Below, piece by piece: positions 1,957 through 29,408 of a stretch of DNA of 64,000 bases. Below the pieces are notes generated by a model, which was not told the DNA's origin, did not search any database, and worked only from the letters and a program-made list of their open reading frames with translations. The stretch covers positions 19,107,418-19,171,417 of the forward strand of contig NC_092570.1 in the NCBI RefSeq assembly GCF_037975245.1, given 5' to 3'. Numbering within the stretch: the stretch's first letter is position 1; each line of letters begins with the position of its first letter. A program made the translations under genes and the position numbers. The DNA is from Apostichopus japonicus. Its lineage: Eukaryota; Echinodermata; Holothuroidea; Aspidochirotida; Stichopodidae.

Positions 1957-1959
1957 GTT

Positions 1960-2291
1960 ACATGTGTAGCTTTTTGAACGACGTGACTCTCGCTGAACAG
2001 CCAATAGGCAAAGAGGCAAGAAAATCGAAGCAAATCAAAGTAAGGTAAATATCCAATCACGACCCAGCAGATAAACACACTGATTGTAAAAAAAATATAA
2101 AACTTGTTGAGGTTGAAGTTCAAGTTCAAACAGTATATGTTAACAACAAATCACAGTTATTTAAATACCAGCGCCACATTTGAAAATCATTTCATTCAAT
2201 TCAACGTTCGTTTGTGAGGGATCGTCGGTCTGGCAGATGAAAACTCGAGTTCTTTATATCACCGACAGATTTGACGAACTGAATTCTAACC
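1960..2291 (+). promoter_or_regulatory. Putative promoter and 5' UTR of LRR gene A1
   Basis: This block is almost identical to 17098-17426, upstream of LRR gene B1, and the similarity runs through the leader exon and into the intron. A TATA-like TTATTTAAATACC sits near 2156-2168. It is followed after about 30-40 bases by an AT-rich stretch and then a G/C-mixed segment (GTGAGGGATCGTCGGTCTGG) that would be 5' UTR. The equivalent TATA-like element in the second copy is TTATTTTTATATCAG. Promoter identity is inferred from position and conservation. Confidence 0.45.
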
Positions 2292-2308
2292 ATGGATCAT
2301 AGATTCAG
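2292..2308 (+). other. Predicted leader exon of LRR gene A1
   Basis: The ATG lies in a good context (CTAACCATGG) and is followed after 17 bases by the donor AG|GTATGT. The same structure occurs at 17427-17443 (donor GTATGT) and, with a different 5' flank, at 25059-25075 (donor GTAGGT). All three end in phase 2 with AG, and all three are 2-4 kb upstream of an LRR exon whose acceptor is in the matching phase. Three independent matches make chance unlikely. Confidence 0.65.
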
Positions 2309-5300
2309 GTATGTCCTTACTTTTACCTCAGTCCTTGACAGACTTTCGGCATAACGTAACTTTAGTACTAGTCCATATTAGTGTATTTATGATGCTTACG
2401 AGAAGAAAAAGCCGTTTGCCAAAGTCTATTCGTATAAGGTATACGATTCCGTTCAGCGCAACGTTCTCTTTGATCGTTTGGCATCCGATGTCCTTCTAGC
2501 TATAACAGATTGTATAAACAGGCGTGTTTCCAGGAGGTGACGAGAACCTCCTGCCTCCCCCCTTTCCAAACCCACACAAGAAAGTGGTTATAGCACACTA
2601 CCTCCCCTATTAGCCTAATTATATATGAAATGTATAGCCTATATTTGCTCCAGAATATACTATTTCACGTCTGAGGTTTGTGTTGGGAAAGAGGGGGGGG
2701 ATGAGGACCCCCCACACCTCTTAAAATCCTCCCCACTCATATGGGAGTCGGCTTCAACGATCTCAGGGCTACAGCCCCTCCTACTTAAAATCCTGGATCC
2801 ACCCTGATAAAGATGAGCCAAAGTAAGGTAATGTAAGGGTTTGTGTACAATGCTTTCTGTTATATTTTCATATAGGAAAGTCTTTCTTGAGCGAAGCTTT
2901 TCTCTGTCTTCGCACCATTATGTATGTATACGCATCTTAAATGATGAATATGACTACAAATATGCAAAGGGATTCACCTCACGTAACTTTAAGTATCTTT
3001 CCGGTATCTTAAGTCTTGTTTTCCAACACAGAGTGAAAACGAAAGATTATTTTCGTGACTAGAACTTAAAATATTCGTCGGTTTAGTCTCCACTACTATA
3101 CAGCCTCCACTACTTCTTGTATAGGAAGTTTGTTAAACTGAAAATGAACTTCGTACGTTTGTTTGTTCCATTGCAATTAAATCAACTGTATAAATACCGG
3201 TTCACAGTCCAATTTCGACCGCTATATACATAAAGCGTGAACGGTAGATGTGAACAAAACATATTTATCGTAAAAACATATTCATCACAGTCTCTTACTA
3301 CTTCCGTCTGTCAAAAGTAACTGTCTGTGCATGCCAAGATCATATATTACTTTTGACTCAAATAAAAAACAAAGTCGTTGTGTTTGTTGGTCAATTTTCC
3401 CCAACCTGAAGGAGCTGCAGCTCCAACAGGATCGCATCACAACAAAGTTGTTCCAGGGAGTTGTTCCATAACAACTCCCTGGTTGTTCAACATTTCTATA
3501 GTACTATATCGCGCTATAAACGTCTCTGATTGGTTCAAAAAACGTCTGAATTCCCAACCTGAGACCGATGACAACTAGGTGGCCGACCAATTTAAGAAGC
3601 GATGGTTACAAATGTTCAGGGTTTCCTCGCACTTGCGACCACCAAAGACCTGAGTACAAAGTATCGAAGTGGGTGAATAGGTCGACAGTAGGAGCTCCTC
3701 AAGTAGGACTTGATGATTATAATTTGTTTTATTTTCCAAGTTTATCGTGATCGTAAGAAGTAGTTTAAAGAGAGGCCGTTAAACTACCTACATAAACCTT
3801 TCTGTCGCTGAGAAGATCGTTATCCATGCACTCCTCCTTCAACTAGCGTGTTGTGCAACTGCAATGTCCCGAATGCAATTACAATTTCCCGAGTGCGTGT
3901 ACAAACCCATGAGTACATGTACAATACTGAAACGAGTACATGAGTCCGAGTCCGAGTACAAGAACAATTAATTTGGTTTCAAATCATAATCGTGCATGCA
4001 TTCAGCGGTAATTGTACTTTCGTGTAGGCTAGATGTCTTTATGCTGCAAGGTCCATTTTAAGGAAGCAAAGTTTGCTCTTTGTTTACATCAGATCAGATC
4101 GTATTTCTTACATATTTAAATTGTATTATTATGTTGAGAAATTTGTTGGTCCGGGTGGAGGGAGGGAATCTGGCCAGACTTTCTGGATGACTTTCCCTTC
4201 GTGCACAATTATTTTCTTTCTTTTGAATAATTTCGCATAATTCAGACTCATGCTGTATCAAAAAGTTGAAGGTTTACAGTCTTGTATGAGGCTAATGCCT
4301 CCTCACATGACTTTACAACTTAACCCCTGGTCATTGGTAACTTGTCACACCCACACACCAAAGTGTGCACAATTCAATCAATCTCTCCTGGGGCACCACA
4401 GTGCACCACAACCACGTGTCCCCCGGGGGACTTCCCATAGGGTGCAGCCACAAACCGGCGCACGCAACTATATTTACAAGTTACCTCGCAGGTCCCCATT
4501 TATACACCTGGGTAAAGAGAGGCAATGGAGATAAAGCGCCTTGCCCAAGGACACAACGCAATGATCTGGCCAGGGCTCGAACCTGTAATCCTTAGATCAC
4601 AAGTCCACTGCCTTAACCACTTGACCACAACGCCCTCCATATCAGCCGTTTCATAAATGTTACAACACATGACAACAAATATGCAACCTGACTTTCTGGA
4701 TGACTTTCCCTTCGTGCACAATTATTTTCTTTCTTTTGAATAATTTCGCATAATTCAGACTCATGCTGTATCAAAAAGTTGAAGGTTTACAGTCTTGTAT
4801 GAGGCTAATGCCTCCTCACATGACTTTACAACTTAATCCCTGGTCATTGGTAACTTGTCATACCCACACACCAAAGTGTGCACAATTCAATCAATCTCTC
4901 CTGGGGCACCACAGTGCACCACAACCACGTGTCCCCCGGGGGACTTCCCATAGGGTGCAGCCACAAACCGGCGCACGCAACTATATTTACAAGTTACCTC
5001 GCAGGTCCCCATTTATTCACCTGGGTGAAGAGAGGCAATGGAGATAAAGCACCTTGCCCAAGGACACAACGCAATGATCTGACCAGGGCTCGAACCTGTA
5101 ATCCTTAGATCACAAGTCCACTGCCTTAACCACTTGACCACAACGCCCTCCATATCAGCCGTTTCATAAATGTTACAACACATGACAACAAATATGCAAC
5201 CTGCCGAACCTGAATAATTGTTTCATATGCCTTTATGATGATGTGGAGGATTAAATGACCTGGCCACAAAATTAAAATCACATTTTATAGATCGTTACCA

Positions 5301-7661
5301 ATATACTATGGGTGGTGTATGGGGTACAAAAACCAGCCGGGTTTGGGCCCTTCCTAAGAAGAATGTTACTTATGTAGTTGTCCAACGATCAATTAAAACA
5401 GTCACTTTAGCATGCAGCATTGTAATGCTTTCAGTAGGCACAATACTACTGCGGGTATATATTATCCCAGCGGTAGCCCTTGTATATTATTAAAGATACT
5501 TTATAGGACTATGAAATTTATGAGCTATACATGTATGTAACAGCGATACCAAGGAGGTCACAATTGGTTAGAATATATTACGGAGAGTGGGAGGGAGGGG
5601 TATTCATACACTTGCATCTTCACTTGGTTCATCACTGTAACATTTGACTTTGGAAGTTCAAGTTACATTTAAGTACTACAAGATAGCAATTTGAAGTTGA
5701 TAACGATTTTACACCGAAATAGAATAGAAAGAAATCGTTCAGATATCAAAGCGAGTACAACCACTTGAGTAAGAGTTCGAGTACACCCTGTAAATACTCG
5801 CAAATGATTCCGAGACTTCCACTATATCTTCAGTGAAGTATATATTGACACACAAGCAATGTTATTAGTTGATTTACAAGTCAGACATTATAACATTATT
5901 ACTCTGTCCTATTTGATCCCATAGGCTAGTAACCTTCGAGTAAGAAGATGGAAAGGTCTCAAACACACATATCATAAGACAATCTAGAATGCTTCGTATT
6001 TAAATGTCGCTCACCCAAGTTATGAATAGCATTGATATCAGCAAACCCTCTCGTTTGTTCATAAAAGCCCCATGATTCATTCATTACTATGTGTTTACGT
6101 GACCTCATATTTCACTTATCTTTGCTGTATCGCATTTCTGATTCTATTTTCATTAAGTTATAACTGTTTTGAAAGATTATATCGTTACGCCTGATTATAG
6201 AATAAACAAAACATGATATTGTTTTCCCTCTTCATTTTTAGGCTTTACAACGATGTAGTCGTGGTGGTTCTTATCATTGGAACACTTAAATATCAGGTAT
6301 TTGGATCTACTTCCGAGCAGCTGACCTCAACAACTTTGAAAGATTTGATGGAAAAAGAACGAAGGGTGGAAGGATACCTCCAGATTACACAAACATGCGA
6401 GTCAGTTTGTGAATATGACGATTGGTATCAACGAGCGAAATGTAATAACCGGGGTCTTCAGATGATACCTTACTCAACAGGGTGTGAGGAAGCCGACATG
6501 TTGGAGTTGCATGAAAATGTTATTACAAACATAACGTCTGATCTCTTGTCAGGTTATGGTAATATTGAAACTTTAGATTTGTCCCATAACAAAATAGCCT
6601 CCGTTCAACCAGGGACATTTGATTCAACGAGAGTTCTAGAAAACATATTTTTATCTGCGAATTTAATTACCGAGCTGGAAAATGGAACATTCAGAGGAAC
6701 TGAACACCAACTGGTAAGACTTTTCCTTGACAATAACAAACTAACCGAAATTCATTCGCTTGCATTAAGGAAACTTAGAAAGTTAAAGACGTTAACTTTC
6801 AGCAACAACAAGTTAACTTTCCTTCCTGAAAACGTATTCATTGATCTCGCTGAGATGCAGTACCTCCATCTCAGAGGCAACAGGCTTACATACCTTGATA
6901 GCAACATCTTCAGTGGCTGCTCCCAATTAAAGAGCATTTCTATGGATCGAAACTATCTAACCCTTGTACCTGCTGGGCTATTTAGAGGACTGACGTCACT
7001 AAGCTCTGTGGATCTATCATACAATCAAATTGAAGACATTCCCAGCCCCATAGATCTTGGAATACATAACAATTTGCAAACTTTGAATCTTTGCAATAAC
7101 TACTTTACATCTTCTGCCACGATCACGACTTACCTCGACAACACCGGCTTATTAGTCATGTGTGGAAGTAATCCTTTCGAATGTGACTGCAGCTTTCAGA
7201 GACTACAGGATTGGTTTAACCGTCAATCAGAGGAGAACCGAAATTTGATAACAAGTAGAAGTCCTCTAGGATGTAAATGGAATGCTTCGCTTATCAGCAT
7301 TGATGATGACTTGCCCAGCGTTTGCCTCTTACCAACACCGACTCTGATAGGATCACCAGTAACGTCCCAGGAACCAATTCCCGCTACAGGTAGTACTACT
7401 AGTCAAGTGTTAGCTGCAGCATCGTCTAATACACGAAGATATTCTGACCAGGAACCTTTAGTATCATCTTTAGACTATGAAAGGAAACCAACTCCAGAAA
7501 CATTAAGAAATAACTCTTGCTATGGTAAATCGTCGGATACGGTAAATTTCGAATTGTTGACAGTTTTAGGAGTTGTTAATATATGCTTGGTTGTAGCAGT
7601 AATTGTTATTTTAACTAGAAAATTGCCAGAAAAAAATGCTAGAAAATGTGAAAGTGTATAG
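2292..7661 (+). CDS. LRR transmembrane receptor-like protein, gene A1 (two exons)
   Basis: Model: exon 1 is 2292-2308 (ATGGATCATAGATTCAG, then GTATGT) and exon 2 is 6242-7661, after a pyrimidine-rich TTCATTTTTAG acceptor. The join restores the Arg codon and gives 478 residues beginning MDHRFRLYNDV, with a hydrophobic leader (about 9-22). In order follow an LRRNT cap (about 58-90, with C-x3-C and a DDWYQRAKC motif), about nine 24-residue LRRs (91-315, LxxLxLxxN pattern), an LRRCT cap (about 316-367, NPFECDC plus two later Cys), a Ser/Thr/Pro-rich stalk, a membrane helix (about 443-463) and a tail of about 15 residues. An in-frame ATG at 6213 lies in the predicted intron and is probably not used. 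The plan matches secreted or surface LRR recognition proteins; no ligand or signalling motif is visible. Introns and flanks hold SINEs and duplications. A single-exon gene starting at 6213 is the alternative. Confidence 0.75.
2512..2803. mobile_element. Short interspersed repeat in the A1 intron (copy shared with B1)
   Basis: The right end reads CCTGGATCCACCCTG. The left end has a degenerate inverted version (TTTCCAGGAGG), followed by C-rich sequence and an ACCCCCCACACC-type tract. The same insertion occupies the same place downstream of the B1 leader exon (about 17660-17915, with GAATCCAGGGGG and CTGGATCCACTCCTG). It was therefore present before that block was duplicated. Confidence 0.45.
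3010..4176 (+). other. Intron of gene A1, no further gene seen
   Basis: Non-coding intron sequence. The only marked structure is a perfect 13-bp hairpin at 3453-3465 and 3470-3482 (CCAGGGAGTTGTT and its complement) with a four-base loop. A short GAGTCCGAGTCCGAGTAC repeat lies near 3945-3960. Confidence 0.4.
4177..4689 (-). repeat. tRNA-derived SINE, copy 1 of a 513-bp tandem duplication
   Basis: On the minus strand a tRNA-like head starts near 4637. Its A box (TGGTCAAGTGGTTAAGGC) is complementary to 4610-4627 and its B box (GGTTCGAGCCC) to 4573-4583. These are pol III internal promoter elements. The head continues into a body with CCTTGGGCAAGGCGCTTTA, a phrase I know from conserved central domains of invertebrate SINEs; I do not name the family. 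The whole unit, including flanking sequence, is repeated immediately at 4690-5202. Confidence 0.7.
4690..5202 (-). repeat. tRNA-derived SINE, copy 2 of the 513-bp tandem duplication
   Basis: Nearly identical to 4177-4689; only a few single-base changes are visible, for example the SINE phrase AAGGCGCTTTA becomes AAGGTGCTTTA on the minus strand. The repeat boundary falls at GACTTTCTGGATGACTTTCC (4177 and 4690). The flank is duplicated with the SINE, so this is a segmental tandem duplication and not two insertions. Confidence 0.75.
5203..6241 (+). other. Rest of the A1 intron
   Basis: AT-rich intron with no gene, RNA or repeat that I recognise. It ends in a pyrimidine-rich tract and AG at 6240-6241, the predicted acceptor of the main A1 exon. 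Confidence 0.4.
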
Positions 7662-8238
7662 CATAAGAGTTGTACATATGTATGTCAATATATACTACAA
7701 GAGGTAGACACTAGTCCACAAAAAGAAAAGGATGTGTCATTAACAAACTAGTGAATATTCATGCATCCTGTAAATTTTAGCCTCGTATCAAAAGGTATGT
7801 TATGATAGATACATATAATTCGTGTGTATCTTGTATTATATTATGTAGAAATATATTGAAACAAAACTTCAGAAAGAATTTTCAGATTCTCCAAAAAGTG
7901 ATGTTATGCGATAATGTTAAATACATACGGATTTATTCTTATGTAAATTTTTTGTACACATAATTGTACCAGAAAAAAACAAGAAATTTGTGAGGAATTT
8001 TGTTTTAATTTTGACAAACATTTGATAGGATATATGTTTCATGATATATTAGATACAAATCTAAAAAAACAAATTGTGGATCTAACTTCCAGTAGATATT
8101 AGGTTCTCTGGACTCACTTGATCAGTTTGAGCACCGCCTTAAACCTCAACTTTTGTCAAATTGTTATTAGATATATCCTTCTTGTCATCATCTGTTAAGC
8201 ACATGGAGCAACTGTCGTCAGATTCTGCGCAATATGGA
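7662..8238. other. 3' flank of gene A1
   Basis: AT-rich sequence after the A1 stop codon, presumably 3' UTR and intergenic DNA. No further coding potential is visible. Confidence 0.4.
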
Positions 8239-8386
8239 ACTAATTATAATTATATTATTAATTATTATTGTTTCTGTATTTATTATTGTTGCTATGATTA
8301 TTATTATTGCTATATTTGTCATTATTGTTACTATTACCATAATTGTTCTTGTTGTTATATGTTTTAGTTAAAACAATATCTATCTA

Positions 8387-8425
<39 letters not shown>

Positions 8426-8444
8426 TATTTATATATATATATTT

Positions 8445-8516
<72 letters not shown>
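8239..8516. repeat. AT-rich microsatellites: TTATTG-type tract then long (TA)n
   Basis: From about 8239 to 8360 there are irregular ATT/GTT repeats. From about 8380 to 8516 there is an almost pure TA dinucleotide array with a few interruptions. Reading frames here (Tyr-Ile strings) are artefacts of the repeat. Confidence 0.9.
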
Positions 8517-8715
8517 TGTGTGATCCAGGATATCTCTCAAACGGAACAATATATCTCTTGCTTGTTTTAGCAATTCAACAGAAGCCACTCTATCATATAA
8601 GATGACGTTTCGATTTGCTTCCAATTGAGCCTGTAATGCTGTACAGCAACTTTACTAGAAAGAACTAAACCTATAGTCATCTGGTCACGGGTCCAAATCT
8701 CTAGCTCAAAATTTC

Positions 8716-8845
8716 TTGTCCATTTCATGTAGATAATTTGTGTGTAAATACGGTACATTTAACGTCATGAACAACAAGCAAGGAATGATAATTAACCATG
8801 TAGTATAGCTTAAACTAAATGCTGATGTAGTTAGTCCTTTGTATC
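8716..8845. repeat. Second copy of the 1598-1735 segment
   Basis: Shares long exact stretches with 1598-1735, including TTCATGTAGATAATTTG, AATACGGTACATTTAAC and AAATGCTGATGTAGTTAGTC. In copy 1 the segment lies inside the inverted-repeat element at 1222-1956, so this is probably a remnant of the same repeat family or of a wider duplication. Confidence 0.65.
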
Positions 8846-11168
8846 AAGCCACGACAATATCTGAGCGTAGGAAGTATTTATTCAGAAATGAAATCTCATT
8901 TTTTAGATCAGTTGTTGCTAACTATACTTGTACTCGTTCTTGTGTTGTTAATTTGTTTCTCTCGAACCTTAGTTATATAACGCAAAGTCACCACGACTAG
9001 AAAGTAAATTGTTTTATAACAGATATTTATTTATATACTGTATATAACAGCATTTGTAACAGTGGAGGATTTGGGAAGGCCCGGAGGGCGGGGGGGGGGG
9101 GTAATGGGGTGGAAGGGGGTTTGGGATCTGCGTGTCCGTTTGTATTTCAGGAATGATGGGTGGGGGAGTGGTGCCATCAGGCCCATGACAGAATGTACCT
9201 GACGAGGTCATCTGTGAGAGACCTATTGATCCATTAATATTTCCAAAAATAAATAATCCAGTGGATTCTATTTCTACCTGATTCATCTTATCTTTGGATG
9301 AACTTACCTTCAGATTAATACCATCGATAACTTGGCATTTTGCTAGGATGCTAAAATGGATAGGAATGACGCTAAGCTACCCTCAAGTACAGTGGGATAA
9401 ACGTAAAGGTTACGATTAAAACTCAATTTATGTTGCACGTCTAGAAAATTATTTCAAAACTCATACACGAACTTCGTCGGGAGAACTTGAACTGAAATTT
9501 ACTCTGCCTGGAAAGATTCTCTCGGCCGTAGTTTGCTCAAATAAGACATTTCTCTAATGGGGGGGGGGGGGGGGGGGAGAGCATCATTTCAAAATAAAGC
9601 CTTATCACGTCCGTTAGGACACAGGTTCCCACGCAAAATGCTCCGAGACCAGAGTCGTTTAACAGGCGTGTCATATTGAACAGTTGAACCTGAAGGGCAA
9701 TCAAAGATTCTCCACAGCACACCAATTGCAGAACACATGTATGTATGTATGTATATCAGGTTACCACATATTATATTCTTCTGTCTTACGTGAGCGTCGG
9801 GTTTATTCAATAAAGGTAGGTAGTTCTGACAAAGTTCTAATACGTAAAGTGCAAATTATTTATCGACGGTGTTTCGACCATGTAGCAACAGTACATGCTC
9901 GTTTACAGTGTTTGTTAGAGGCTGATGTTGCAACTTTAAATCTGTCAATGGGTCTATCAGAATAACACTCTTAGTTGAACTATTTAAGGAATCTCTAATT
10001 ATGTAACTGCAGTATCTCATTTGCATAAATGTGTGTGTAACAATAGACTTAATACTAGTAGTATACCTTTAAATTCCTTAGGCGGTTTTTGGAATGTTGT
10101 CTCTGTGGAAAATTAGGCATAGAGATACTCACTTCGCTCACTGACGTCCCTCTGTAGAGATTGGGAGACGATTTGGTCGGGGACCAGCACAGTGAAAAAG
10201 TGATAAGTTTTGAAAGTGAAGTCAACGTATTGTGAAAGTCAATACGTATTGCGTGAACCAGGTTTTGGATTGGAGCCGTGACCTGTAAGTTTGTTTAATA
10301 TATTATTATACTAAGTCACGGGGAAATAGAATTCGTGGATATCAATTTGCGGGGGATGAAAATTTCGTGTTTATTAATTCAAGGGAAATTAAAATTTGCG
10401 TTAATTGCTTTATGAGAAATCAAATTTGTGTACGAAAAGTACCGGACAAATTTACAAGTAATTGGCTTCTTTCACATAAAATGTGTATAATGTTATTTAA
10501 ATTCTTGACATGTGTAAATTCAAGTTATTAGAAATTAACGAGTTTAAAATCTGTCGTTAAACAGGTGAATTAATTTTTGGGAAGTCATTCCGCAACAGAA
10601 ATTTTGCGATATGTATTTATGTTTCAATCATCTCCAAAAAGAATGTGCTGTCATGCGTATTACTATATGAAAATGTTAATACTGGAATAGGGTTCAAAGG
10701 AATTAGATATTAGACAACTTCTTCCTTTTTAATTCATAAGGTGGTAACTTGTGACCTGAGAATTAGGTCAAACATTGGCTGAGAGGCGACATGCGATGTT
10801 CCTTTCGACTGCTTGAGAGGCAGAGATAGCTTTGAGTCTTTATCCTGGAACTTGAGAGAAAGCCGTGTCGAGCCTAACCTGTATATTCGTATTATTATTA
10901 TTATTATTCATTTGTATTCTAAGTATTATTGTAGGAGGCCTCAAGTAACTTATGGTTTCGTATAATAAAGTACATTTTTGTGTTTAAAACTCGTATCGCT
11001 TCTTTTATCGATTCTATGTGTCAGACCTGCACCTGTTCCAAGGACCTTGTTTAGGGGAACCTTGTGACAAAATCATATGGTAGCATTTTTATGTTTAAGG
11101 TACCCTTCAAAATCAATTGTTTTCCATATATCAAAGGAGAGCAGCGACTCTTCTACTCCTCAGGCTAA
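8846..11168. other. Non-coding stretch with G-run repeats
   Basis: No gene recognised. It holds long G homopolymers at about 9090-9102 and 9559-9577, typical of the repeat ends in this region, and an ATT microsatellite near 10885-10910. The stretch from about 10740 to 11070 has some look of a solo LTR (an AATAAA motif about 100 bases before a TGACA end), but I could not define its ends. Confidence 0.4.
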
Positions 11169-12164
11169 CAGTGGCGTAGCGAAGGTTTCAGGGGTCCCGG
11201 TTCAAGAGTGCAAACCTTGAGGCCTTTCCCCATACTTCTTCTTAACTGCTCTTGACTCGAAGCCAAAAATTGTCAAATCCACAAGAAACACTGGTGCTTA
11301 TTATGCGTCATGGAACACGGAAAATCGCCTTTCGGAAGACTGAACACATTCTGCGCCAAAGTTCAGCGACTACGCGATTTTTTCCACCGATTCTGCGTTC
11401 TATCATTCATGCAGGGGCGTCATTCCGATTTGAAACGTGGGGGGGGGGGGGGACGGAATCGACTCCAGTATTCCGGCCGTAAGTACTATCTAAGCGGAGC
11501 GCCACCATCGGTTGGCGCGCAGCGTACAAGAAAATTGTTCTTCTGGCAGACCCCTCAGATTGCAGGAAACGGCACTTCCCGTGCATTATGGCAGAAAGCA
11601 ACACCCCTAAAATTGATAAAAATTTCCGGCAATTTTTTTATTTTGGGAAATATTCTCGAAGGAAGTGATCGCCATTTATTCCTAAGCTTACCAATTCCTC
11701 GTCTTTCAGAAGCGCCCAAGATTTAAGATATCGAAACATTGTCGTGTTGGCTGATCCATGATCACCGCCCATCAAGGTCGGCGGAAGCACTTTTAATCTG
11801 GGGGGGGGGGGGGCACCGACATCAAAGGGCACTTTGCAGCAATTCGATTGGACTGATGCAGCCTTATAGTATATTTAGTACCCTTTACAACTCTTATTGT
11901 ATTATCTTATTTGTGTACACACATCACTCCATCAACGCCCCCCCCCCCCCCTCTCAAAGAAAATATGCATACTAGCACTGCAATATGCAATGTACAAATT
12001 GGGAAACAAGGAACAAGTTTTCTTTTGAGACAAAATGAGGCGAAATCATGCTAATTGCTAATGTAGGAATCTTCCGAATTAGAGTTTATTTCTTGTTAAT
12101 ATCTTAACAAATTTGTTTCATTCGAAATAGCTTTGAGTTTGACCCACAGAAGTTCACTAAGATT
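11169..12164. mobile_element. Cluster of hAT-like terminal fragments with G/C runs
   Basis: Several element ends are crowded here: CAGTGGCGTAGCG at 11169, CAGGGGCGTCATTCC near 11412, and G or C homopolymers at about 11440-11453, 11801-11813 and 11938-11951. A module shared with three other elements lies at 11485-11590. Whole elements cannot be delimited and no transposase frame is present. Confidence 0.4.
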
Positions 12165-12804
12165 CAGAGGCGTAGCCAGGAGTTGCAAAGTTGTATGCAC
12201 GACTATCTGAGCGGAGCGCCACCATCGGTTGGCGCAGAGCGTAGTAGAAAATTTTTGGTTTTACAAACCCCTCAGATGGCCGGAAAAAGGCCCTTCCCGA
12301 GTGTTCATTCTGGTTCCCTGGCCTCTTGCTAACTTGAGACACCTCAGTTTTTATGTAGAAAGTGGGCACATTTTTAACCTGGGAAAAAAGTGGGGGCACG
12401 TGCCCCCTGGTTCCGCCGCCCTTGCCGCCCATGCCCGTGAGAAGTGGTGACTGGGTGAAGAAAAAGCCATGCCGTTTGAAAACATGCGCAGAAAAAGTGA
12501 AAGTAGCGAAACCTAAGGTAAAACGCGCGATAACGAAGTGATTATTTTCCAGGTTAATTGAGACTGTATCAAACGCGAGCTTAGGACAAACATATTCAAA
12601 GGTAATGGCATTACTAATCCCGATATGTCGTCTTTGAGGTATGTGGAAAATCCGCAACGACCTTCAAAGAGCAATTGAATATTTAGTCTACTTTTCGATT
12701 TCGAAAACACTTTTTTTAATTTAAATTATGACAAAATTTTATGACACCTTTGATATTTTTGAGGGGCCTGTGCCCCCCGGGCCCCAATGGGCACGACGCC
12801 ACTG
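12165..12804. mobile_element. hAT-like non-autonomous element (640 bp)
   Basis: The left end is CAGAGGCGTAGCCAGG, and the right end read inward is CAGTGGCGTCGTGCCC. They share the CAG-GGCGT core of hAT-type termini. The interior has the shared module (12198-12305) and a C/G-rich right arm. The 8-bp flanks (CTAAGATT and ACCCCAGG) do not match, so this may be two fragments and not one insertion. Confidence 0.4.
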
Positions 12805-12833
12805 ACCCCAGGGCCTCAGATATATGCCCATTG

Positions 12834-13194
12834 CAGGGGTGGGCAACCTTTTGAATGAATGGGCCAGATTTTAGGAGTGAAAGATTGACAGGGCCGCACC
12901 TAACCAACGGCCTGCTGCTGATTTCAAACCTTTGATTCCGAGGACGTTAAAGCAATAGGTGTGTGTACTTAATCTGTATTCACAAAACCATAATGTCAAT
13001 ACAGTCCTGTTGATAATTAATGGTGATAATAGACCAACCTGACAGCCTCATAAGTGCAGATAAATTCTAAGCAGCTAGCTCGTTTTTGGTGATGATGCAA
13101 AATAGATTGATTTTTTTCTTTTTCTTGAGACATCTCACGGGCCGCAAAAAAATCACTGGCGGGCCGCATGTGGCCCGCAGGTTGCCCACCCCTG
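12834..13194. mobile_element. hAT miniature element with CAGGGGTGGGCAACCT termini
   Basis: Perfect 16-base terminal inverted repeats (CAGGGGTGGGCAACCT at 12834 and its complement ending at 13194) enclose 361 bp. The arms are rich in GGGCC and GGCCCGC, as is typical of hAT (Charlie-like) elements of many animals. Flanking octamers are GCCCATTG and GTCTATAG, matching at five of eight positions. The right one fits the usual hAT target form nTCTAnAn, so this looks like an old target duplication. No coding sequence. Confidence 0.8.
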
Positions 13195-13583: not shown

Positions 13584-13591
13584 ATGAAGGC

Positions 13592-14683: not shown

Positions 14684-14691
14684 ATGAAGGC

Positions 14692-15985: not shown

Positions 15986-16039
15986 GGATATGAATCCTAA
16001 GATGTGTAAGCCGTAACCAAATAGAGCCACAACACTACT

Positions 16040-16554: not shown

Positions 16555-18125
16555 AAAAAAAAGAGAAATAAATAAGAGAAATAAGAATGAGAATTCCTAA
16601 ACAAATAATCAGTTCAAAGCTTTGCCAAAGATTGCACAATTTTGCGTCTAAGCCATCTTAAATAAACAAAAATTTATCAAGGGGAGAGTGACACCCCTAC
16701 TCTTAGACCCCTCCCCCCCCCCCCAGTACGGCATCACCGACCGGGGTGACAAAGAAAAGTTTCGACCCGGGTACCAAATGACAATTTCAATACATTATAC
16801 TCATAACCGGCATCAGGATGTTTCATGCGACTCGTGTAGTAGGCTATTTTTCTTCGGGCAAGGTTTCAAACATCTGGTTAAAACATATTGGGACGGCCCC
16901 GTACGCCTATGTATACAGCATTGCTAGGTATAGGTGAGTAATAAGGTTTTCGTCCGATTGTACAATACAATTAATCGATGTAGGTTCTGATAGGATTTTA
17001 CTTTTGTAAAGAATTTGATTATATTATATATTTTGGAGTAAGGATACTTTACCCCTGTGGTATACGCAAACGCCTGTTTGGACTGGCTGTTTTATGTTAC
17101 ATGTGTAGCTTTTTGAACGACGTGATTTAAATCTGGCTGAACAGCCAATAGGCAAAGAGGCAAGAAAATCAAAGCAAATCAAAGTAAGGTAAATATCCAA
17201 TCACGACCCAGCAGATAAACACACTGATTGTAATAAAAAAGATAATACTTATTGAGGTTGAAGTTCAAGTTCAAACAGTATATGTTAACAACAAAACAGT
17301 TATTTTTATATCAGCGGGATATTTGAAATGTCATTTCAACGTTCGTTTGTGAGGGATCGTCGGTCTGGCAGATGAAAACTCGAGTTCTTTATATCACCGA
17401 CAGATTTTACGAACTGAATTCTAACCATGGATTATAAATTCAGGTATGTTCTTACTTTTACCTCAGTCCTTGACAGACTTTCGGCATAACGTAACTTTAG
17501 TACTAGTCCATATTAGTGTATTTATGATGCTTACGAGAAGAAAAAGCCGTTTGCCAAAGTCTATTCATAATTGGTATACGATTCCGTTCAGCGCAACGTT
17601 CGCTTTGATCGTTTTGGCATCTGTCCTTCTAGCAGTCCTTATAACATTTTGTATGAACATTGGTGAATCCAGGGGGTGACTAGGCCCCCCCCCCCTTCTT
17701 TCCAAACCCACACAAAAATTGATAATTAGCACAACATTGCGTGTAAGTATAACGATAGAATTCATGTATAACCAATATTTTGCCTCGGAATGCACCATTT
17801 CACATGAGAATTTTTTTGGGGGGAGGGGTGAACCCCCACATCCCTTACATGGGAGTCGGCTTAAACGATCTCAGGGCTACACCCCCTCCTGTTAAAAATC
17901 CTGGATCCACTCCTGATAAAGGCGAGCCAAAGTAAGGTAAGTGGGCTGGTTCGTGTACAATGCTTTCTGTTATAGTAACATATATAGGGCAGTCCTTGCG
18001 CGAAGCTTTACTCTTGTCTTCGCACCATACTGTGTGTAATACGGTGGCGGCAAGGGGTGTCCATATTTCGTACATAATCAGAGGTTTATTCACCTTTAAT
18101 TTAAAAACACTTTCCCACCCGTACG
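16555..18125 (+). repeat. Second copy of the 1740-3010 promoter/leader block
   Basis: Matches 1740-1880 (at 16561-16715) and 1960-3010 (at 17098-18125) at high identity. Unrelated sequence lies between (16716-17095), where copy 1 instead has the right end of the element at 1222-1956. The copy contains the promoter, leader exon and proximal intron of gene B1, including the interspersed repeat at 17660-17915. Similarity decays gradually after about 17940. Confidence 0.8.
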
Positions 18126-20780: not shown

Positions 20781-21831
20781 AACTCTATAATCCTTAATCT
20801 ACTGTACAATTTCATATAACATATAAAACTAATCAGATATGTAACCATACATGGCAACCTCCTTCGCGTATTGGATACACTAAGGTAATGCTACTTGTTG
20901 AAGATCTTAACATTTCGACATTTCAACAATTTAACGTATCGTAGCAAAATAAATTCAATTGCTTCCTTAAAGATCGTTGAGGTTTTTTCGGATCTGTATT
21001 TCTCAAAGTATGACCAAATGGATTATAAAGTAAGGATTACAGAGTAAATAAATATTGTTGCCAATAGCCAAGGAATGTACATATTTTCGTTGTATTTAGA
21101 AATGTTTGTTAAATGAACAAAGCATCTACTCAACAACGTGTTGCAGTTAAATGAACTAACCTTCATGTGTGTTTTTAAATATTAATAGTTACTCATTGGA
21201 CATTTTGCGAAGAAATGTTTCAGTGGTCATTGTTTCTTATTTCTACAAATTGTCGATAAAAAATTAATATTATAAAAACACCTATATCGTAATGCACGAA
21301 GAGGATTAAATACAAATTATTTCGTTATACTCTCTAAATAATGAAAAGTCGCTCACTTGTGAGCGAACGAATGAATATATGACAAAAATGTGGTTTCTTC
21401 CTCGACTTAAAGGCTTAAAATTGGCGTTTTAAAATAAAACCACAAGAACAACAACAACAAATTTTAGACCTTTATTGCGAGTACGATTTCAGACTGGTTC
21501 ATTAAATGTGCGTGAATTTCTTCCTGCGAGAACATAACTGGCAGTTATTATCTGTTGACTCAAATGTTGGAACGAATTCACGGGGACTCTAGACAATTGG
21601 TGCCCTGGTGGTTTGATGAACAGCCTGAAACGTCTATTTCTACACCTCTACAGGTCATCATAACTTTGTCCTCCTTTCAACAGACAAAATATGTTAACCC
21701 AACATATCGATCTGCATTATACTGGTTACTCCAGAAGTGCTTGACACTTCCCATTATATACCAATTGTTGTTTCGAGCTTTATGAAAAACTTCTATGGTG
21801 CGCCTAGTGTGCCATAAGTACTTAAATCAGA
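20781..21831. other. 3' flank of gene B1
   Basis: The first 70 or so bases match the flank of B2. Candidate AATAAA signals lie near 20948 and 21046. Otherwise AT-rich, with no gene recognised. Confidence 0.4.
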
Positions 21832-22910
21832 TTCAGATTCTCTTTATTGCATCCCAAGCTGGGCAATTGATTGCTCACAATATAAAACATACGTACAGTA
21901 CATAAAATACACAAATACACCAATATACAAAATATATCAGACTTTCAAATACTAAGACATAAGACATGAAACAAAGCTGGCAAGATACGTAAAAACGATA
22001 AAATACAAAATACAGTAAAACAGCACCAGAAATGCTTGTGAAACATTGGATTGCACAATGAGCAAGATTACTGACCTAACGAGTAAAAGATTCATTATGA
22101 AGTTTAATACAACGAGGGATAAAGGAGGATTTGTAACGATTCGTAACGGCAAGGGGTAGTCTCATCCGCCCACTGCAGGGTATTATTGCACTTTCCAAAT
22201 TAATGTGTAGAGGGTGGCTACTGTTGTTGAGAACCCCAGCAAGTTTACTTTGAAGGTGAAGATGATATGACGTGTTCACTGACTGCTGACGTTCACCTAG
22301 GATGCGACTGACATGGCTTATAATAATCTATCCGTTTTCTGTCGGTACCATTGACATTACCTCCCCAACAATTAATGCAACATGACCACACACTGAAAAT
22401 CACAGAATTGTAGAAAATAGGAAGAATGTTTCTACTGATGTTGAAGGTGTTCAATTTTCGCAAGCAATAGAGTCTTGGATTGATCCGTCTTACCAAATAA
22501 TCAATGTGGTCATGCCAATTCAGCTGATCATCCAAAACTACGCCAAGGTACTTATAGGACGAGACACGGTTTACAGCCAGGTCTTTGATAACAACAGGAG
22601 GAGGTTCATGATCTCCTTTCCTAAAATCAATCACCATTTCCTTTTTCTTCTCCACGTTAAGCTCAAGGAAATTTTGATCACAATAGTCTACAAACCAATT
22701 TATTTGAGACAAATATTCACCTCCATCATCTCTAGTAATCAAACCCACTAATGCAGTATCATCAGCAAATTTAATTAGAGGGCAGCTGTCATGTGATGAT
22801 CTAGCATCTGAAGTATAAACAGTGAATAAAAACGGGGCAAGAACAGCTCCCTGTGGTGCACCAGTACTCGAAACTAATATGTTGGACACACAGTTGGACT
22901 GGTTGAAAAA
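21832..22910 (-). pseudogene. 5'-truncated non-LTR retrotransposon (reverse transcriptase, CR1/L2-like)
   Basis: The minus-strand frame 22889-22293 reads GAPQGAVLAPFLF, then IKFADDTALVG (the catalytic FADD box), then YKYLGVVLDDQLNW, the conserved order of a non-LTR reverse transcriptase. A frameshift near 22290 moves the end of the protein to another frame (22279-22076, YKSSFIPRCIKLHN). The 3' end at about 21832 carries a short repeated GAATCT tail after an AATAAAG-type string, as in CR1/L2-group elements. It is truncated 5' of the palm domain near 22910 and cannot be active. Confidence 0.85.
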
Positions 22911-23128
22911 AAATCGACATATGTCGAATTAAATTGACATTTGTCGGTTTCTTCCAATCAGAGACCAAAAGAACAACAGGTGACACTAGTCGTCCAATGA
23001 GAGCACGAGGCGCACCATACACTTTGATCATTATAACACATCACTTGGCTATGGAACGCCAAAACCGACAAAAATGCAGAAACATATTATGTAAACCTAA
23101 GTCATTACGTGAAAACAAAGCTATCGCC
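22911..23128. other. Flank of the retrotransposon fragment
   Basis: Begins with a short inverted repeat (CGACATATGTCG) followed by ATTTGTCGG, next to the 5' truncation point. Otherwise non-coding. Confidence 0.35.
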
Positions 23129-23420
23129 ACATAATGACGAAGAACAATTTAAGTCCTTATAGGGCACTAATAGCACCTCCACATAATGACCAAGAACATT
23201 TTAAGTCCTTATGTGGCACTAATAGCACCTCCACATTATGACCAAGAACATTTTACTTATCATGCGATCCTAACACTGACACATAATGACCACCAATACC
23301 GACAATATTCACAAGTCCTTATGTAGGGATCACTCATATCGCCGCCACATAAGGACTAACGCAGTTAGTTGGTCCTTATGGGGATCTCGCATGTCGCCAC
23401 ATAAGATTACAGGCTCATAC
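23129..23420. repeat. 52-bp tandem repeat and degenerate fold-back
   Basis: ACATAATGACCAAGAACATTTTAAGTCCTTATGTGG-type units start at 23129, 23181 and 23233 (exactly 52 bases apart). They then continue as scattered CCACATAAGGAC and GTCCTTATG phrases in both orientations up to about 23410. The two half-units are partly inverted (CCACATAA and TTATGTGG), so the array can fold back on itself. Confidence 0.75.
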
Positions 23421-23574
23421 ACAAGAGATGTACAGACATTATGATAGTAATAATGAGTGACAACATGCTAAACGGTCACAGGTCACAGAAACGACCACGA
23501 AGAGTTTATATTTGCACTTACCTCATGCAGCATTTGTTGGATGAAGTTTTAGCCACCGCCAAATATGAATCTCA

Positions 23575-24585
23575 CGCATTATTTTCTATTTATGGCCACA
23601 AAAAAACCTATGCCAGCAAATATTGGGGGTGGGGATATTAGATACTATATCCCACACCTAAATATTGGGGGAAGGTACCCCCGTCCCCCCCCCCCACATG
23701 ATCGCCGCTAATGCATGTGTCATAGATACCAAATTCCTTGAGAAGCTACGCGAACAATGGAATTTAGCTAAGTGGTACTTTTTTCTATTTATGGCCACAA
23801 AAAAAAAACTATGCCAGCAAACATTGGGGGTGGGGGATATTAGATACTAAATCCCCCACATAAAATATTGGGGGAATGTACCCCCGCCCCCCACATGATC
23901 GCCGCCCATGCATGTGTCATAGATACCAAATTCCTTGAGAAGCTACGCGAACAATGGAATTAAGCTTAGTGGTACTTTTTCTATTTATGGCCACAAAAAA
24001 AACTATGCCAGCAAATATTGTGGGTGGGGGATATTAGATACTATATCCCCCACCTAAAATATTGGGGAAATGTACCCCCGTCCCCCCCCCCCACATGATC
24101 GCCGCCCATGCATGTGTCATAGATACCAAATTCCTTGAGAAGCTACGCGAACAATGGAATTTAGCTAAGTGGTACTTTTTTCTATTTATGGCCACAAAAA
24201 AAAACTATGCCATCAAATATTGGGGGTGGGGGATATTAGATACTATATCCCCCACCTAAAACATTAGGGGAATGTACCCCCGTCCCCCCACATGATCGCC
24301 GCCCATGTATGTGTCATAGATACCAAATTCCTTGAGAAGCTACGCGAACAATGGAATTTAGCTAAGTGGTACTTTTTTCTATTTATGGCCACAAAAAAAC
24401 TATGTCAGCAAATATTGGGGGTGGGGGATATTAGATACTATATCCCCCACCTAAAATATATTGGGGGAATGTACCCCCGTCCCCTCCCCCCACATGATCG
24501 CCGCCCATGTATGTGTCATAGATACCAAATTCCTTGAGAAGCTACGCGAACAATGGAATTTAGCTAGGTGGTACTTTTTCCAATG
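23575..24585. repeat. 200-bp tandem satellite, about five copies
   Basis: The phrase ACATGATCGCCGC recurs at 23696, 23893, 24093, 24290 and 24492, spacing 197-202 bases. Most length change lies in the C homopolymer and the A run. Each unit has paired G5 and C5 blocks (GGGGGTGGGGGATATTAG and TATATCCCCCACC) that can form a hairpin. Frames reading FLEKLREQWNLAKWYF recur in each unit, but frames shift with the homopolymers and I treat them as non-coding. Confidence 0.9.
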
Positions 24586-25058
24586 TTAACCGCAGTTTTC
24601 AATTCCAGTAATGCCATTTTGGGTATTTTTCTTTCAAACAATCGAACTGCAGCTGGAATTTACTCAGCTTATCAGGACTGTAGACATAATTTATATATAG
24701 ATTTAGTGCTCAAGTATTTGTGTTCGAACTTTGCGGTTCTTTGTCCTGTGTTAATAAATATCTTACAGTATATGACTGGTATGTAAATAAGCAAACGACG
24801 CTCAAGATTGTGTGTTTAGTATCAATCGATTACTCGGATGTAAATAGAAGAGTAAATATACCGGTCATATTGTAATACAAAAGATACTAAGGTGCACAAG
24901 AGTTCTTTGTTGTTTCTTTTTTTGTCACGTTTTGAAACTGGCACGAAAAGTTCATACTGCATGCATTTCAGTCATTTAAACATTCGCGTTTGTTGTTTGA
25001 AGTTGCTGCGCTAACTTTCACCGCCAGGTTTCCAAGCTGAGTACTCACTGAGGCAGAC
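24586..25058 (+). promoter_or_regulatory. Upstream region of LRR gene B2
   Basis: AT-rich then mixed sequence leading into the predicted B2 leader exon. The part at about 24920-25010 (GCATGCATTTCAGTCATTTAAAC, then TTCGCGT) has a diverged relative at about 25815-25890 (GCATGCAATTCAGTCATTAAAAT, then TTCGCGT), suggesting a duplicated regulatory segment. It does not resemble the A1/B1 promoter block. Confidence 0.35.
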
Positions 25059-28000
25059 ATGGATATCGATATCAGGTAGGTTGCATGTTCATCTGATAAC
25101 ATCTTCAATATACGAACATTCGGAATGAATACAGTTATGAATCAGTATAGTGCTATACAAAAGAGAATATGATCTTCATAGACTGTACATGCACAGGTAA
25201 TACTATCTTGTTTCTGTATCATCATTTTTAATGTACTGAGCATAACATATGTTGGCCATTTTGTGCTAAAACGGTCCTTAGCTTGCTGCGTCCACCTTAT
25301 ATAGTATTTATCAACATATAATACGTGTTTTGGTGATGTGCACGATTTCAATAGTTGGCTATTCTGGCCTCTTTCTTAGTGAATTAAAAACGATATTGTT
25401 TGCTTCAAATGCCAATAATTCAAGATATATCTTTCATTGTAACTTAAAAATGCCAGTGAGGCTGTAGGAGTTTTTGAGTTCCTTCACTTCCAGTCTGATG
25501 TTTTGATTCCAGTCAAAATGACTAACAAAATTGTTAGCAGATCTTGGACAAAGGCCTCAGTCTATGATAGTTATCTATATAACCAGTGTATGATTTGTCC
25601 ATTAATGGAACCTGCTGGCATATGTAAAACATACCAAGATGTGTAGACTTTTAAGTTCTGAAAACCCCACCGTACGATTTGGTCCACAAATTAAATGTAC
25701 ATGTTTAAGGTCCGTTAATGATTACTTTTAGAGGGAAGAGTAAACATGTCATAGGTTATATGGTAAATATAATACCAGAGTAAATCCATTGAAACGATGT
25801 TTACATGCATGCCTGTCACGTGTTATATTTTTGCGCGAAACGTAAAAAAAGCATGCAATTCAGTCATTAAAATCTTCGCGTATTTTACTGTTTAGACGTT
25901 CTTCGGTCTCACTGTAAAATTGGCAAGTTGAATATTTCTAGCAGGAATAAATGACTTACCTTATGCTGCACAGTCTCGAAAGGAAAGTTTTAATCATCAG
26001 GAGAGAGAGAGTTAGTATTTGGGAATTAACTTTGAAGCTCCTATACACTTTGAGTCCAATGTATTGTCGTAAGTTATCCTTATATATGTCATATGCGGGG
26101 TACAGAAAGTTAAACCTGGTACTTGTTTCCTAATACCAGGTACTTTTATCAATGCACGCGTACATCGACGCTATATGTACCATGCACGGCAAATGGCAAG
26201 GTACCAATGTAACTCATCAGACGACTCATGCAGGATTGAGGCTAATAACTACAGTCTTCCGGATTCAGTTCTAACATACCGACGTTTGATATGCAGCATG
26301 CAGTCCTGTTATTCAGGATATTGTGTCCAAATATATTGAATAGATGGATATAAAGGTCACAATCTGTAATGCGTTGGCGTAAAGTTTGTTGAATTTTTCT
26401 TTGCTAAAGGATATATATAATAAATTCATTGATTTTCAGCTGTTCTGTCCTGAACCACAAATTTAAGTATATGCTATAAGGGTCCATTATGAATATTCTA
26501 AACGGTTTCTAAATGGTGTTATGGATATTCTAGAAAAATGGCCAGCTGCAAAGTCCCCCAGGATCCTAGCGGTCTACAATGCAGCAGGGATGCCCTCCCT
26601 CATAACACTTTACCCCAGTTCCAGGCCTATTATCTAGTACTGCTGAGGCGGGTCACTTCCATATGGCGATGGCGTCGGATTAATACATAATCGTCACCAT
26701 GGGTCTCTGAATAGTTCGTTTCATCACTCAACCGCACCATCGATCTCTTTCTACACTATACGATACATACGCAGGACAATATCAGCCAGTTTGGCAAGTC
26801 TATAGATGAGTTATAAAGTGACGTCATACGTTTTAATACACTCAGTAATTGTGTGTAACACCAAAACTTTATATGTTACAAGGAAAATTTCTGTCTACAG
26901 ATTTGTTTCTATTTCTGACATGTTACTACGTAATTTTGTTCTAGAACTTTCATCTTTGTACAATGGCAATTGATTTAGTGGTATTGGGTGAAGAAAGAAC
27001 CAGGGTCACCAAGTGGGACTTATTCACGTGATTATAGTCAGGTCACTAACAGTCTGGTTTAAATGATTTGCTTTGACTGAAGATTGTCCCATATTCGGCA
27101 GAGAGAAAGATGATGCTTTTGCTGGTCGAAATATGTATTGCAATAGAGGCATGGATTATAAGACTGCGTTTTAAATAATACAGCTGAAAGATATGTAAGT
27201 TCAGCTAATTAGTTAAAGTTGAATAATTTACTGAATAGTAAAGATGACGACTGCATTTCATTCAAAAAGTAAAGAACCTTACGATAAATGTGTATTCCTC
27301 TTCATTACCTCATTGCCCATTCAAGTGTCTAACACTGGAAATGGAAAGATTATTAACCTATGAAAGCCGCTAAAAATGGTCACATTGTGCAGACAAGCTA
27401 AATTTGTCAATGTGAACTTATTAGATCATTGAAAGGCATTATGTATGCCATCTTGACAACGTCCCTGTCGTTCCGGTGTATTACCCCAACAACAAACTTA
27501 AAGTCTTAAAACTTGGTTCGATAAAACTTATTTTTACGATGATCAGTTTCTGTATTTCGGGAACTATAGACAATCATGTGTAAAGGGAAAAATGCGTGTC
27601 AGTCCCTAATAATATCGTCTTTATCTCTATTAATTCATCTCTCTTACTGATGTAAAATGGAGACTTATTGGACTTTTTTTTTTGCTTATGCATGTGACCT
27701 AAACAAGCTCCAGTCGTTAACAGCATAGTCGTGTGCACTGATAAGTTGGTCAGTGTGGAGAGGCCTGTTTTTGGACTTTTAGACTCTACGACGTAACAAC
27801 GCCGGGTCGAGTTCAGTCGTGTCGGTATAAATCGCAGAGGGTAAGACGGGCTATACATTAGATAGAAAACTGGAGATCCAATGGTGATACCACTCATGCA
27901 ATTTTCTAAGAAAAATGCCATGATTTTCTCTGTCAAAATTCTTTTCTTTCATTCCCAGACTGTGGTGCGGCACCATGATACTGATCATCTTTGCATGTCT

Positions 28001-29342
28001 CGAAAAGAAGGTTCTTCAGTCTTCCTTACTCTGTCTTACAACCCATACCATTCAGGACGCTGCAACAGCAGAGCAAATTATGGGAGAAGTACACCCTTCG
28101 TCTTCCTTAACATGTGGGTCACTTTGTGAATACGATGATTGGTTTCAACGAGCGAAATGTGAAAACCTGGGATTTACGACAATTCCTAATTCAACAGGGT
28201 GTGAAGGAGCAAACATGTTAGAAATTCAAAATAATAACATTTCATTGGTAACTTCTGAAATTTTGTCAGGCTACAGCAATATTTTAATGTTAGATTTGTC
28301 AAATAACAGCATTGTCCACATCAAACCAGGAACATTTAAGCACACACACTACATAGAGAACATTTTATTGTCTAGAAATCAAATAAAGCAGCTAAAAAAT
28401 GGAACATTCATTGGTCCTGAACATCGGCTTATAAGACTTTTTCTTGATCATAATAAGCTGAGGCAAATTGGTGAGCTGACGTTAAAAGGCCTCAGGAGGT
28501 TAAAGACTTTAACGTTCAGCAACAACCTTCTTCATGACCTGCCAGATGAACTATTCAAGGACCTTACTTCGCTACAGTACCTCCATCTCAGTGGAAACAA
28601 ACTGAAACATCTGAAAAATAACATTTTCCATGGTCTCGTTCGATTAAAGAGCATTTCGTTAGATCGCAACTACTTGAGCTCCATACCTGTCGGATTATTT
28701 AGTGGATTGGAATCTCTTTCCTCAGTTGACCTTTCTTACAATCGTCTCACTGTCGTTCCGACACCAGAAGATCTTGGCATCCAAAGCCATCTAAAAAATT
28801 TAAATCTTTACGGTAACAATTTTACTTCTTCATCCAGTATCATTCCATATCTTGAAAGAAATGGTTTACTGGTTACGGTTACTAGCAATCCGTTTGAATG
28901 TGACTGTAAGTTTAAGGCACTGCAAGAATGGTTTCAAAGTGTGCCTGAGGAGAATCAACATTTGGTCACTGACAGAAGTCCCCTAGAGTGCAGATGGAAT
29001 GGTTCACTTGTACCAATCCTTGATGATCTATCACCAATGTGTCTAATTCCATCGGAATATACCACCTTTTCAACATCAACTATAGGTCAACAAAAGTCAT
29101 TTACTTCGCGAGCACAAACAAGTTCTTCAGGACAACGGCCAATTGAAATATATGATGCTGTGACTACTGTGTCGTCTGGAAACCACGATGAAACCCAAAC
29201 ACTATCATCTTCTCAATCGTCGGGTAATTGTGACTCTTACACATCATGTGACATAGCTCTCGTTCTCTCGTCTGTTTCAATAATTTTTCAATTCATAACT
29301 TTAATTGTACTTATAACAATGATCTGCAAGTCTAAAAAGTGA
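25059..29342 (+). CDS. LRR transmembrane receptor-like protein, gene B2 (two exons)
   Basis: Model: exon 1 is 25059-25075 (ATGGATATCGATATCAG, donor GTAGGT) and exon 2 is 27959-29342, after TTTCATTCCCAG. Joined product: 466 residues, the same length as B1, with the same plan (leader, LRRNT from about residue 58, about nine LRRs, LRRCT, Ser/Thr stalk, helix, KSKK tail). An internal ATG at 27975 would truncate the leader. Differences from B1 are uneven: LRR5 and LRRCT are nearly unchanged, while LRR1-LRR4, the leader and the membrane helix differ strongly, mostly by amino-acid replacement. The leader exon is supported by phase and by analogy with A1 and B1, but its 5' flank is unrelated to theirs, so this boundary is the least certain of the three. 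Confidence 0.7.
25076..27958 (+). other. B2 intron
   Basis: No gene seen. The distal part (about 27690-27958) is homologous to the end of the B1 intron. Confidence 0.45.
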
Positions 29343-29408
29343 AGCTCTTTTATCCATAAACTATACTGTACAATTTCATATAACACGATATAACTAAACA
29401 GATATACA

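Follow-up and report, generated by a model that had tools for sequence, protein, structure and literature searches.

Front ends and leucine-rich repeat bodies of apparently different ancestry in a tandem gene array of Apostichopus japonicus

The window analysed here is a 64,000-nt stretch of Apostichopus japonicus contig C10 (C10:19107418-19171417; genome searched, 671.58 Mb on 35 contigs) that carries part of a tandem array of leucine-rich repeat (LRR) genes. Three of these genes, which keep the names A1, B1 and B2 from a first-pass annotation, are each predicted to consist of a 17-nt leader exon and one large exon holding the LRR body. Here we ask how their front ends and bodies are related to one another and to neighbouring copies. 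Coordinates are those of the window unless a C10 position is given, and the features concerned are listed below.

1..1222, + strand: outermost 5' flank of A1, matching the B0 5' flanking DNA, which lies outside the window, at ~97% identity
1223..1956, + strand: stretch with inverted ends (1223-1297 and 1890-1956), directly 5' of the A1/B1 core; 95% identical to B0, with 1731-1902 also present in B1 (16555-16717)
1957..2479, + strand: core of the shared front end L1 in A1, with a putative promoter, the 5' untranslated region (UTR), the leader exon and intron 1 as far as nt 171; identity is 96% with B1 and 95% with B0
2292..2308, + strand: A1 leader exon, 17 nt, MDHRF and a phase-2 split codon
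2480..2932, + strand: A1 intron zone ~75% identical to the B0/B1 intron, an older homology past the breakpoint
6242..7661, + strand: A1 exon 2, with an A-type LRR body, stalk, hydrophobic stretch and short tail
17096..17614, + strand: L1 core in B1
17427..17443, + strand: B1 leader exon, 17 nt, MDYKF and a split codon
19397..20780, + strand: B1 exon 2, a B-type LRR body
24964..25075, + strand: B2 front end L2, with a 5' UTR trace colinear with L1 at 24964-24993 and the leader exon at 25059-25075 (17 nt, MDIDI and a split codon)
27693..27940, + strand: B2 intron end, ~70% identical to B0/B1
27959..29342, + strand: B2 exon 2, a B-type LRR body with 88% amino acid identity to B1
29411..30195, + strand: A2psi, an A-type LRR exon of which only the 3' half is present; a deletion at 29607/29608 breaks its frame

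Genome searches with the B1 and A1 bodies placed the close relatives D1, D2, B0, A1, B1, B2 and A2psi on C10, all on the + strand and within 19.03-19.14 Mb; 101 of 413 candidates were scored for B1 and 99 of 365 for A1, and paralogue counts are lower bounds. D1 (C10:19027882) and D2 (C10:19072648) lie outside the window, and B0 (C10:19103492), which has two in-frame stops, lies just upstream of it. The body match of A2psi (C10:19136825-19137606) is a shortened A-type copy that lacks 127 bp present in A1, a loss that breaks the frame. Remoter LRR genes occur on C1, C17 and other contigs among the body-search matches listed. A narrow literature search, to which we give little weight, found no publication on this A. 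japonicus LRR array.

When the leader is spliced to exon 2 (at 6242, 19397 and 27959), open frames of 478 aa for A1 and 466 aa each for B1 and B2 are obtained. At an E-value of 0.001, Pfam returned only LRR families in the three proteins (LRR_8 at 6e-33 in A1, 1e-32 in B1 and 5e-31 in B2) and found no TIR domain. Each has a strongly hydrophobic 19-mer near the C-terminus and a short predicted tail after the last hydrophobic stretch, and all three resemble short-tailed LRR transmembrane proteins. Toll-like receptors are recognised by an LRR ectodomain combined with a cytoplasmic TIR domain, and the presence of LRR families only, with so short a predicted tail, sets these genes apart from them. 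In the variable lymphocyte receptors of jawless fish an incomplete germline gene is completed by somatic copying of flanking LRR cassettes; here A1, B1, B2, D1 and D2 each have an LRR exon that is open without interruption in the germline, which does not fit that plan, and A2psi is the sole LRR fragment seen between the C10 genes. Sea urchin Sp185/333 proteins are not known to contain LRRs, and the LRR_8 matches place A1, B1 and B2 outside that family.

Promoter function and leader-exon use in this array are predicted throughout. In the predicted models the first exon contributes just five codons, the hydrophobic leader being encoded mostly in exon 2. We also considered use of the body as a single exon, read from an ATG inside the end of intron 1, and rejected it as a family feature: an in-frame ATG precedes the acceptor in A1, B0 and B1, and there is none in B2, D1 or D2. 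Such a reading could hold for A1, B0 and B1 alone.

In the first-pass annotation, A1 and B1 were said to share a near-identical front block at 1960-3010 and to carry LRR exons of different types and modest similarity. A shared block is indeed present (blastn, 1957-2932 against 17096-18043, 83% over all), but it is not uniform: the two genes differ at 22 of 512 positions in 1957-2479 (96% identity) and at 99 of 418 in 2480-2932 (~75%), with a sharp edge at 2479 rather than near 3010. The corresponding counts between A1 and B0 are 25/519 and 108/425, and a change-point at 2479 was found against both B1 and B0, reached by 0 of 2,000 shuffles in either comparison. B0 and B1 differ at 24/509 and 27/516 positions in the stretches matching 1957-2479 and 2480-2932, so that core divergence between A1 and B1 cannot be told from that between B0 and B1 (P 0.77). 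Past 2932, blastn aligns nothing between A1 and B1 until exon 2.

The bodies give a very different picture, as had been claimed. Those of A1 and B1 are 52% identical in amino acids and 67.6% in nucleotides, and their synonymous divergence (dS; Nei-Gojobori count with Jukes-Cantor correction, own script) is 1.39, near saturation. Other pairs have dS values of 0.112 (B0-B1), 0.127 (B1-B2), 0.144 (B0-B2) and 0.135 (D1-D2). Set against the 194.8/307.8 synonymous sites that differ between A1 and B1, the 22/512 of the core is lower by a very wide margin (Fisher 5e-80). A protein tree of the bodies groups A1 with A2psi and B0 with B1 and B2, both at 100/100; it holds nine of ten rows, the C1 row L010 having been omitted for too little aligned length, and A2psi fills only 40% of its columns. 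Change-points and divergence tests thus bear out the earlier proposal that front and body have separate histories.

The A1-B1 block begins at 1957, beside the stretch with inverted ends, and the likeness to B0 runs on, with gaps, past the left edge of the window to position -46, for ~2.5 kb in all. Upstream, A1 and B0 differ at 39/1257 positions in -46..1222 and at 28/579 in 1223-1915. Identity falls to 66% in one 100-base step (1854-1953) because B0 and B1 hold ~360 bp there that are absent from A1. Since the likeness to B0 continues upstream, the shared block marks where a longer duplicated segment ends. Genome-wide, an L1 probe (2196-2479) matched three sites, each within the array: A1 (100%), B1 (96%) and B0 (94%). 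B0 and B1 are colinear over 4.5 kb from 5' flank to 3' flank (91%); L1 on a B body is therefore the ordinary arrangement and A1 the odd gene. A1 thus reads as a B0-like front, 3-5% diverged from B0/B1, joined ~170 nt into intron 1 to an A-type body (dS ~1.4 to B), B0 being the copy that tells most. Original A-B homology would account for the 75% zone at 2480-2932, as would an older exchange. The DNA replaced in A1 may itself have been a homologous front, as this zone suggests, so the type of promoter need not have changed in A1, contrary to the proposed promoter swap.

Parts of this flank recur elsewhere. The 300-1220 segment has one other high-identity copy, at B0 (95%), among the 40 matches listed, with weaker relatives (70%) on C8; its final 210 bp are part of a dispersed repeat, and 1010-1220 has relatives on many contigs. 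In 1223-1956 the inverted ends are 84% identical and there are G/C runs, and 1606-1731 recurs at 8716-8843. The stretch 1010-1956 is probably transposon-derived. Relatives of a local repeat and of the B0/A1 5' flank (70-75%) also lie close together at ~18.506 and 18.689 Mb on C8 (C8:18.50-18.69 Mb), where no LRR body appears among the body-search matches listed; these are perhaps a mobile element.

B2 combines a young LRR exon with old surroundings. Its LRR exon is 88% identical to that of B1 in amino acids over 411 residues, within the 85-90% given earlier. The intron end that the two genes were said to share can indeed be aligned at 27693-27940, but only at ~70% identity (79/246 differences; 80/265 up to 27960). 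A change-point falls at 27940, 19 nt before exon 2, and was reached by 0 of 1,000 shuffles; the exon itself differs at 107/1379 positions. Compared with synonymous sites (36.5/313.3), the intron end (80/265) is significantly more diverged (Fisher 5e-8). On the other side the match weakens again, with 20/99 differences in the transmembrane stretch and 8/60 in the 3' UTR, and the B2 front barely aligns to the L1 fronts. Divergence on both sides indicates that the LRR part of the exon is young and shared and its surroundings old. The boundary that had been placed inside the intron is therefore intronic in A1 but sits at the start of exon 2 in B2, and the evidence favours an exchanged LRR exon beside an old intron over promoter capture as the route for B2. 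B2 is better read as an old paralogue with an exchanged LRR exon than as a gene with a captured promoter. A further junction lies just downstream, where A2psi begins (29411) within 6 bp of the end of the B-type homology of B2 (29405) and adjoins the B2 3' UTR. The adjacency raised the idea that L2 is the native leader of A2psi. It is not supported, and it may or may not hold: A1 1-9000 and B2 24501-30400 have no common stretch of at least 40 bp outside the LRR exons (blastn, E 1e-3, with shorter and one-base-rich matches filtered out).

The leader and upstream DNA of B2 had been called unrelated to those of B1, which proves too strong. The L1 and L2 leaders have the same length (17 nt) and phase and agree at 15 of 23 bases in register. 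A pattern common to both matches only four sites in the genome, all of them the four leaders, compared with 44 for a backward-pattern control; because the pattern was built from these leaders (an earlier one was drawn mainly from A1, with the B2 leader already known), this shows rarity elsewhere and not independent discovery. An off-register pattern one base longer, implying an 18-nt exon, matches eight sites, none on C10. In addition, a ~30-nt trace of 5' UTR, about 65-105 nt before the ATG, is colinear in L1 and L2. Its score is reached by 1 of 6,160 background windows for A1 and by 23 of 6,160 for B1 (the windows overlap), and its blast E-value is 0.065 for A1 and 0.10 for B0. We hold with moderate confidence that L1 and L2 are diverged homologues. 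Beyond a dispersed repeat in the first 100 bp and short weak matches, no second copy of the L2 front (24600-27700) was found genome-wide. Among A1, B0 and B1 the L1 leader exons differ pairwise at 3/17, 2/17 and 1/17 positions.

A pyrimidine-rich acceptor in one phase is present in each of the six C10 genes whose exon start is complete (B0, B1, B2, A1, D1 and D2). With the 17-nt leaders this means that joins between front and body keep the frame and that the leader fits any of the six bodies, which upholds for C10 the earlier idea of a short phase-2 leader compatible with any body, although no leader is settled for D1 and D2. An ATGGA-type 17-nt leader was not found in 9.4 kb upstream of D1 or 13.4 kb upstream of D2. 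A looser 17-nt candidate for D1 (C10:19026565, MKLYS and a split codon) is unconvincing, with no D2 counterpart reported, as are the other D candidates: one conserved 11-nt candidate, two inside the exon, and three more (two for D2, one for D1). Of eight C1 and C17 rows checked, three (L012, L017 and L025) have same-phase acceptor candidates and five have none or other phases, a mixed picture from which the age of the leader junction cannot be stated.

A mosaic pattern also appears within the B-type LRR exons. At informative sites of exon 2, 80 unite B1 with B2, 64 B0 with B1 and 35 B0 with B2, and these sites are clustered. Among six ordered tests for switches, the best was reached by 2 of 5,000 shuffles and the rest by 214, 1078, 1573, 2655 and 2777 of 5,000. 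The B exons are a mosaic among B0, B1 and B2.

In both D1/D2 (L064+L009 and L063+L008) and B0/B1 the LRR exon has diverged further than the intron next to it, synonymous sites included. The exon differences are clustered in both pairs by a variance test (1 of 1,000 shuffles each) and less clearly by a longest-run test (0.054 and 0.015). These patterns hint that other copies supply sequence to the LRR exons.

Taken together, we consider it probable that this is a tandem array of two-exon LRR genes in which front ends and bodies of different ancestry have been joined by non-allelic exchange, that is, by unequal crossing over or gene conversion between neighbours. The A1 front would have come by duplication of a B0-like segment including ~2 kb of 5' flank, and a 5' duplication of this length is more readily explained by unequal crossing over or duplication, with the junction in intron 1, than by a short conversion tract. 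B2, with its B-type LRR exon (dS 0.13 to B1) behind a ~30%-diverged intron end and its boundary at the start of exon 2, would be an old paralogue that had its LRR exon overwritten by that of a B gene or that donated its own to one; conversion or a double exchange confined to the LRR exon fits best. A low-copy repeat on both sides of B0 (C10:19098009-19098768 and 19105458-19106214, 92% identical) is a possible substrate. Part of it recurs 5' of A1; the other occurrences seen lie close to D1 and on C8 (75%), and copies of its last 150 bp are scattered widely.

Several points weigh against this interpretation or limit it. Only three front ends can be aligned and there is no outgroup, so that a supported leader tree is impossible, and the direction of each exchange is inferred rather than proven. 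The branching order of B0, B1 and B2 is not settled (B1+B2 at 58% bootstrap on nucleotides). Introns of the young pairs are less diverged than their synonymous exon sites (72/1743 against 32.5/311.5 in B0-B1; 12/267 against 37.5/302.7 in D1-D2), and this mismatch makes the age of the A1 zone 2480-2932 uncertain. With no settled leader in D1 and D2, the 17-nt leader may not be universal. Finally, the exchanges and the gene models alike are read from the sequence of a single assembly.

The alternatives differ in how much of this they explain. If purifying selection had preserved 1957-2479 as an ancient promoter and leader during the divergence of the bodies, exchange need not be invoked, and the block does hold a putative promoter and leader. 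This is barely credible, however: likeness between A1 and B0 runs at ~97% through more than 1.2 kb of flank and at 95% through the stretch with inverted ends, the A1-B divergence in the block equals that of B0-B1 there and is near that of plain intron, and the leader exon itself shows no greater conservation. We rejected a selection-only account on the extension of the likeness into flank and repeat. Promoter swapping, as first proposed, would have B2 or its ancestor lose L1 and capture a foreign promoter and leader through intronic recombination, with A1 likewise gaining a new kind of promoter. The fronts do differ, L1 being present in B0, A1 and B1 and missing from B2 and no second full copy of the L2 flanks having been found in the genome; yet the resemblance of the L1 and L2 leaders in length, phase and sequence, the colinear 5' UTR trace and the old (30%) intron end of B2, which puts the sharp boundary at the exon rather than the leader, make this quite improbable.

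Closer to our own reading is tandem duplication with internal deletion and no conversion. An extra L1-B gene would have lost its body and distal intron and been fused to a neighbouring A body to give A1, and B2/A2psi would have arisen by deletion between two genes. The long colinear 5' homology of A1 and B0, the 92% repeat on both sides of B0, which could mediate such events, and the start of A2psi within 6 bp of the B2 3' end all agree with it. It leaves unexplained the B1-B2 exon likeness beside an old intron end and the mosaic within the B exons, and we put it at somewhat less than an even chance. For A1 it overlaps with non-allelic exchange, and the confidences given to the two are not meant to sum to one.

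Other features of the window include two tandem copies of ~513 bp (98.6% identical) in A1 intron 1 at 4174-5203, some five tandemly repeated units of 197-202 bp each upstream of B2 (23582-24603), and, directly after A2psi, roughly four 400-bp units in tandem (30215-31828). On the minus strand lie a reverse transcriptase fragment at 22293-22928 (Pfam RVT_1, E 6e-9) and an open frame of 1737 aa at 46174-51387.

Birds and mammals already offer examples of hybrid genes formed in tandem immune arrays, and the advance here is one of clarity and setting, not of kind. With its paralogues in one orientation and conflicting relationships across sharp boundaries (2479 and 27940), the array belongs with tandem hybrid genes such as chicken BG and KIR. 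BG is the closest parallel, a set of tandem immune-type receptor genes in one orientation with hybrid members: two promoter/5' UTR groups with almost no mutual identity are joined to 3' ends of either group, which the authors put down to unequal crossing over or deletion, with the 5' UTR, V-like region and 3' UTR each having its own history (PMC4046983). BG proteins are immunoglobulin-like and those of this array LRR proteins, and the BG study describes no obvious homogenisation, in contrast to the near-identical A1/B0/B1 fronts (PMC4046983). In human KIR3DP1*004, similarly, a receptor gene in a tandem array acquired the promoter of another paralogue by recombination with KIR2DL5A (PMC3443818). 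In BG genes, expression measured in cells and tissues follows the 5' end (PMC4046983), and KIR3DP1*004 is an allelic variant within a species, reported as expressed (PMC3443818), whereas our comparison is of gene sequences within one assembly. The sea urchin Sp185/333 (SpTransformer) genes resemble the array in being clustered echinoderm genes with a leader exon and a body exon; exon 1 is the leader and exon 2, a mosaic of elements, the rest, and exchange and microsatellite-bounded duplication have been proposed for them (PMC3091723, PMC8634487). Unlike the five codons here, exon 1 there encodes the leader (PMC3091723, PMC8634487), and in the 2021 paper the intron tree follows the exon-2 tree, whereas front and body disagree here (PMC8634487). 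More generally, partial and chimeric duplicates are described as common among C. elegans and D. melanogaster duplicates (PMC3449122).

A more far-reaching possibility, which we offer tentatively and think more likely wrong than right, is that the array works as a modular receptor system. L1 fronts would evolve in concert across neighbours and LRR exons would be exchanged independently (B0/B1/B2), made possible by the constant-phase leader junction; the exon border and intron 1 would then be the places where regulatory and recognition modules recombine in the germ line, and their separability might itself be selected for. The array is a compact echinoderm LRR example of front/body recombination, with closely placed breakpoints and measured relative ages. 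If different fronts drive expression in different cells, it would allow exchange of bodies and exchange of fronts to be tested against each other as routes to receptor re-deployment.

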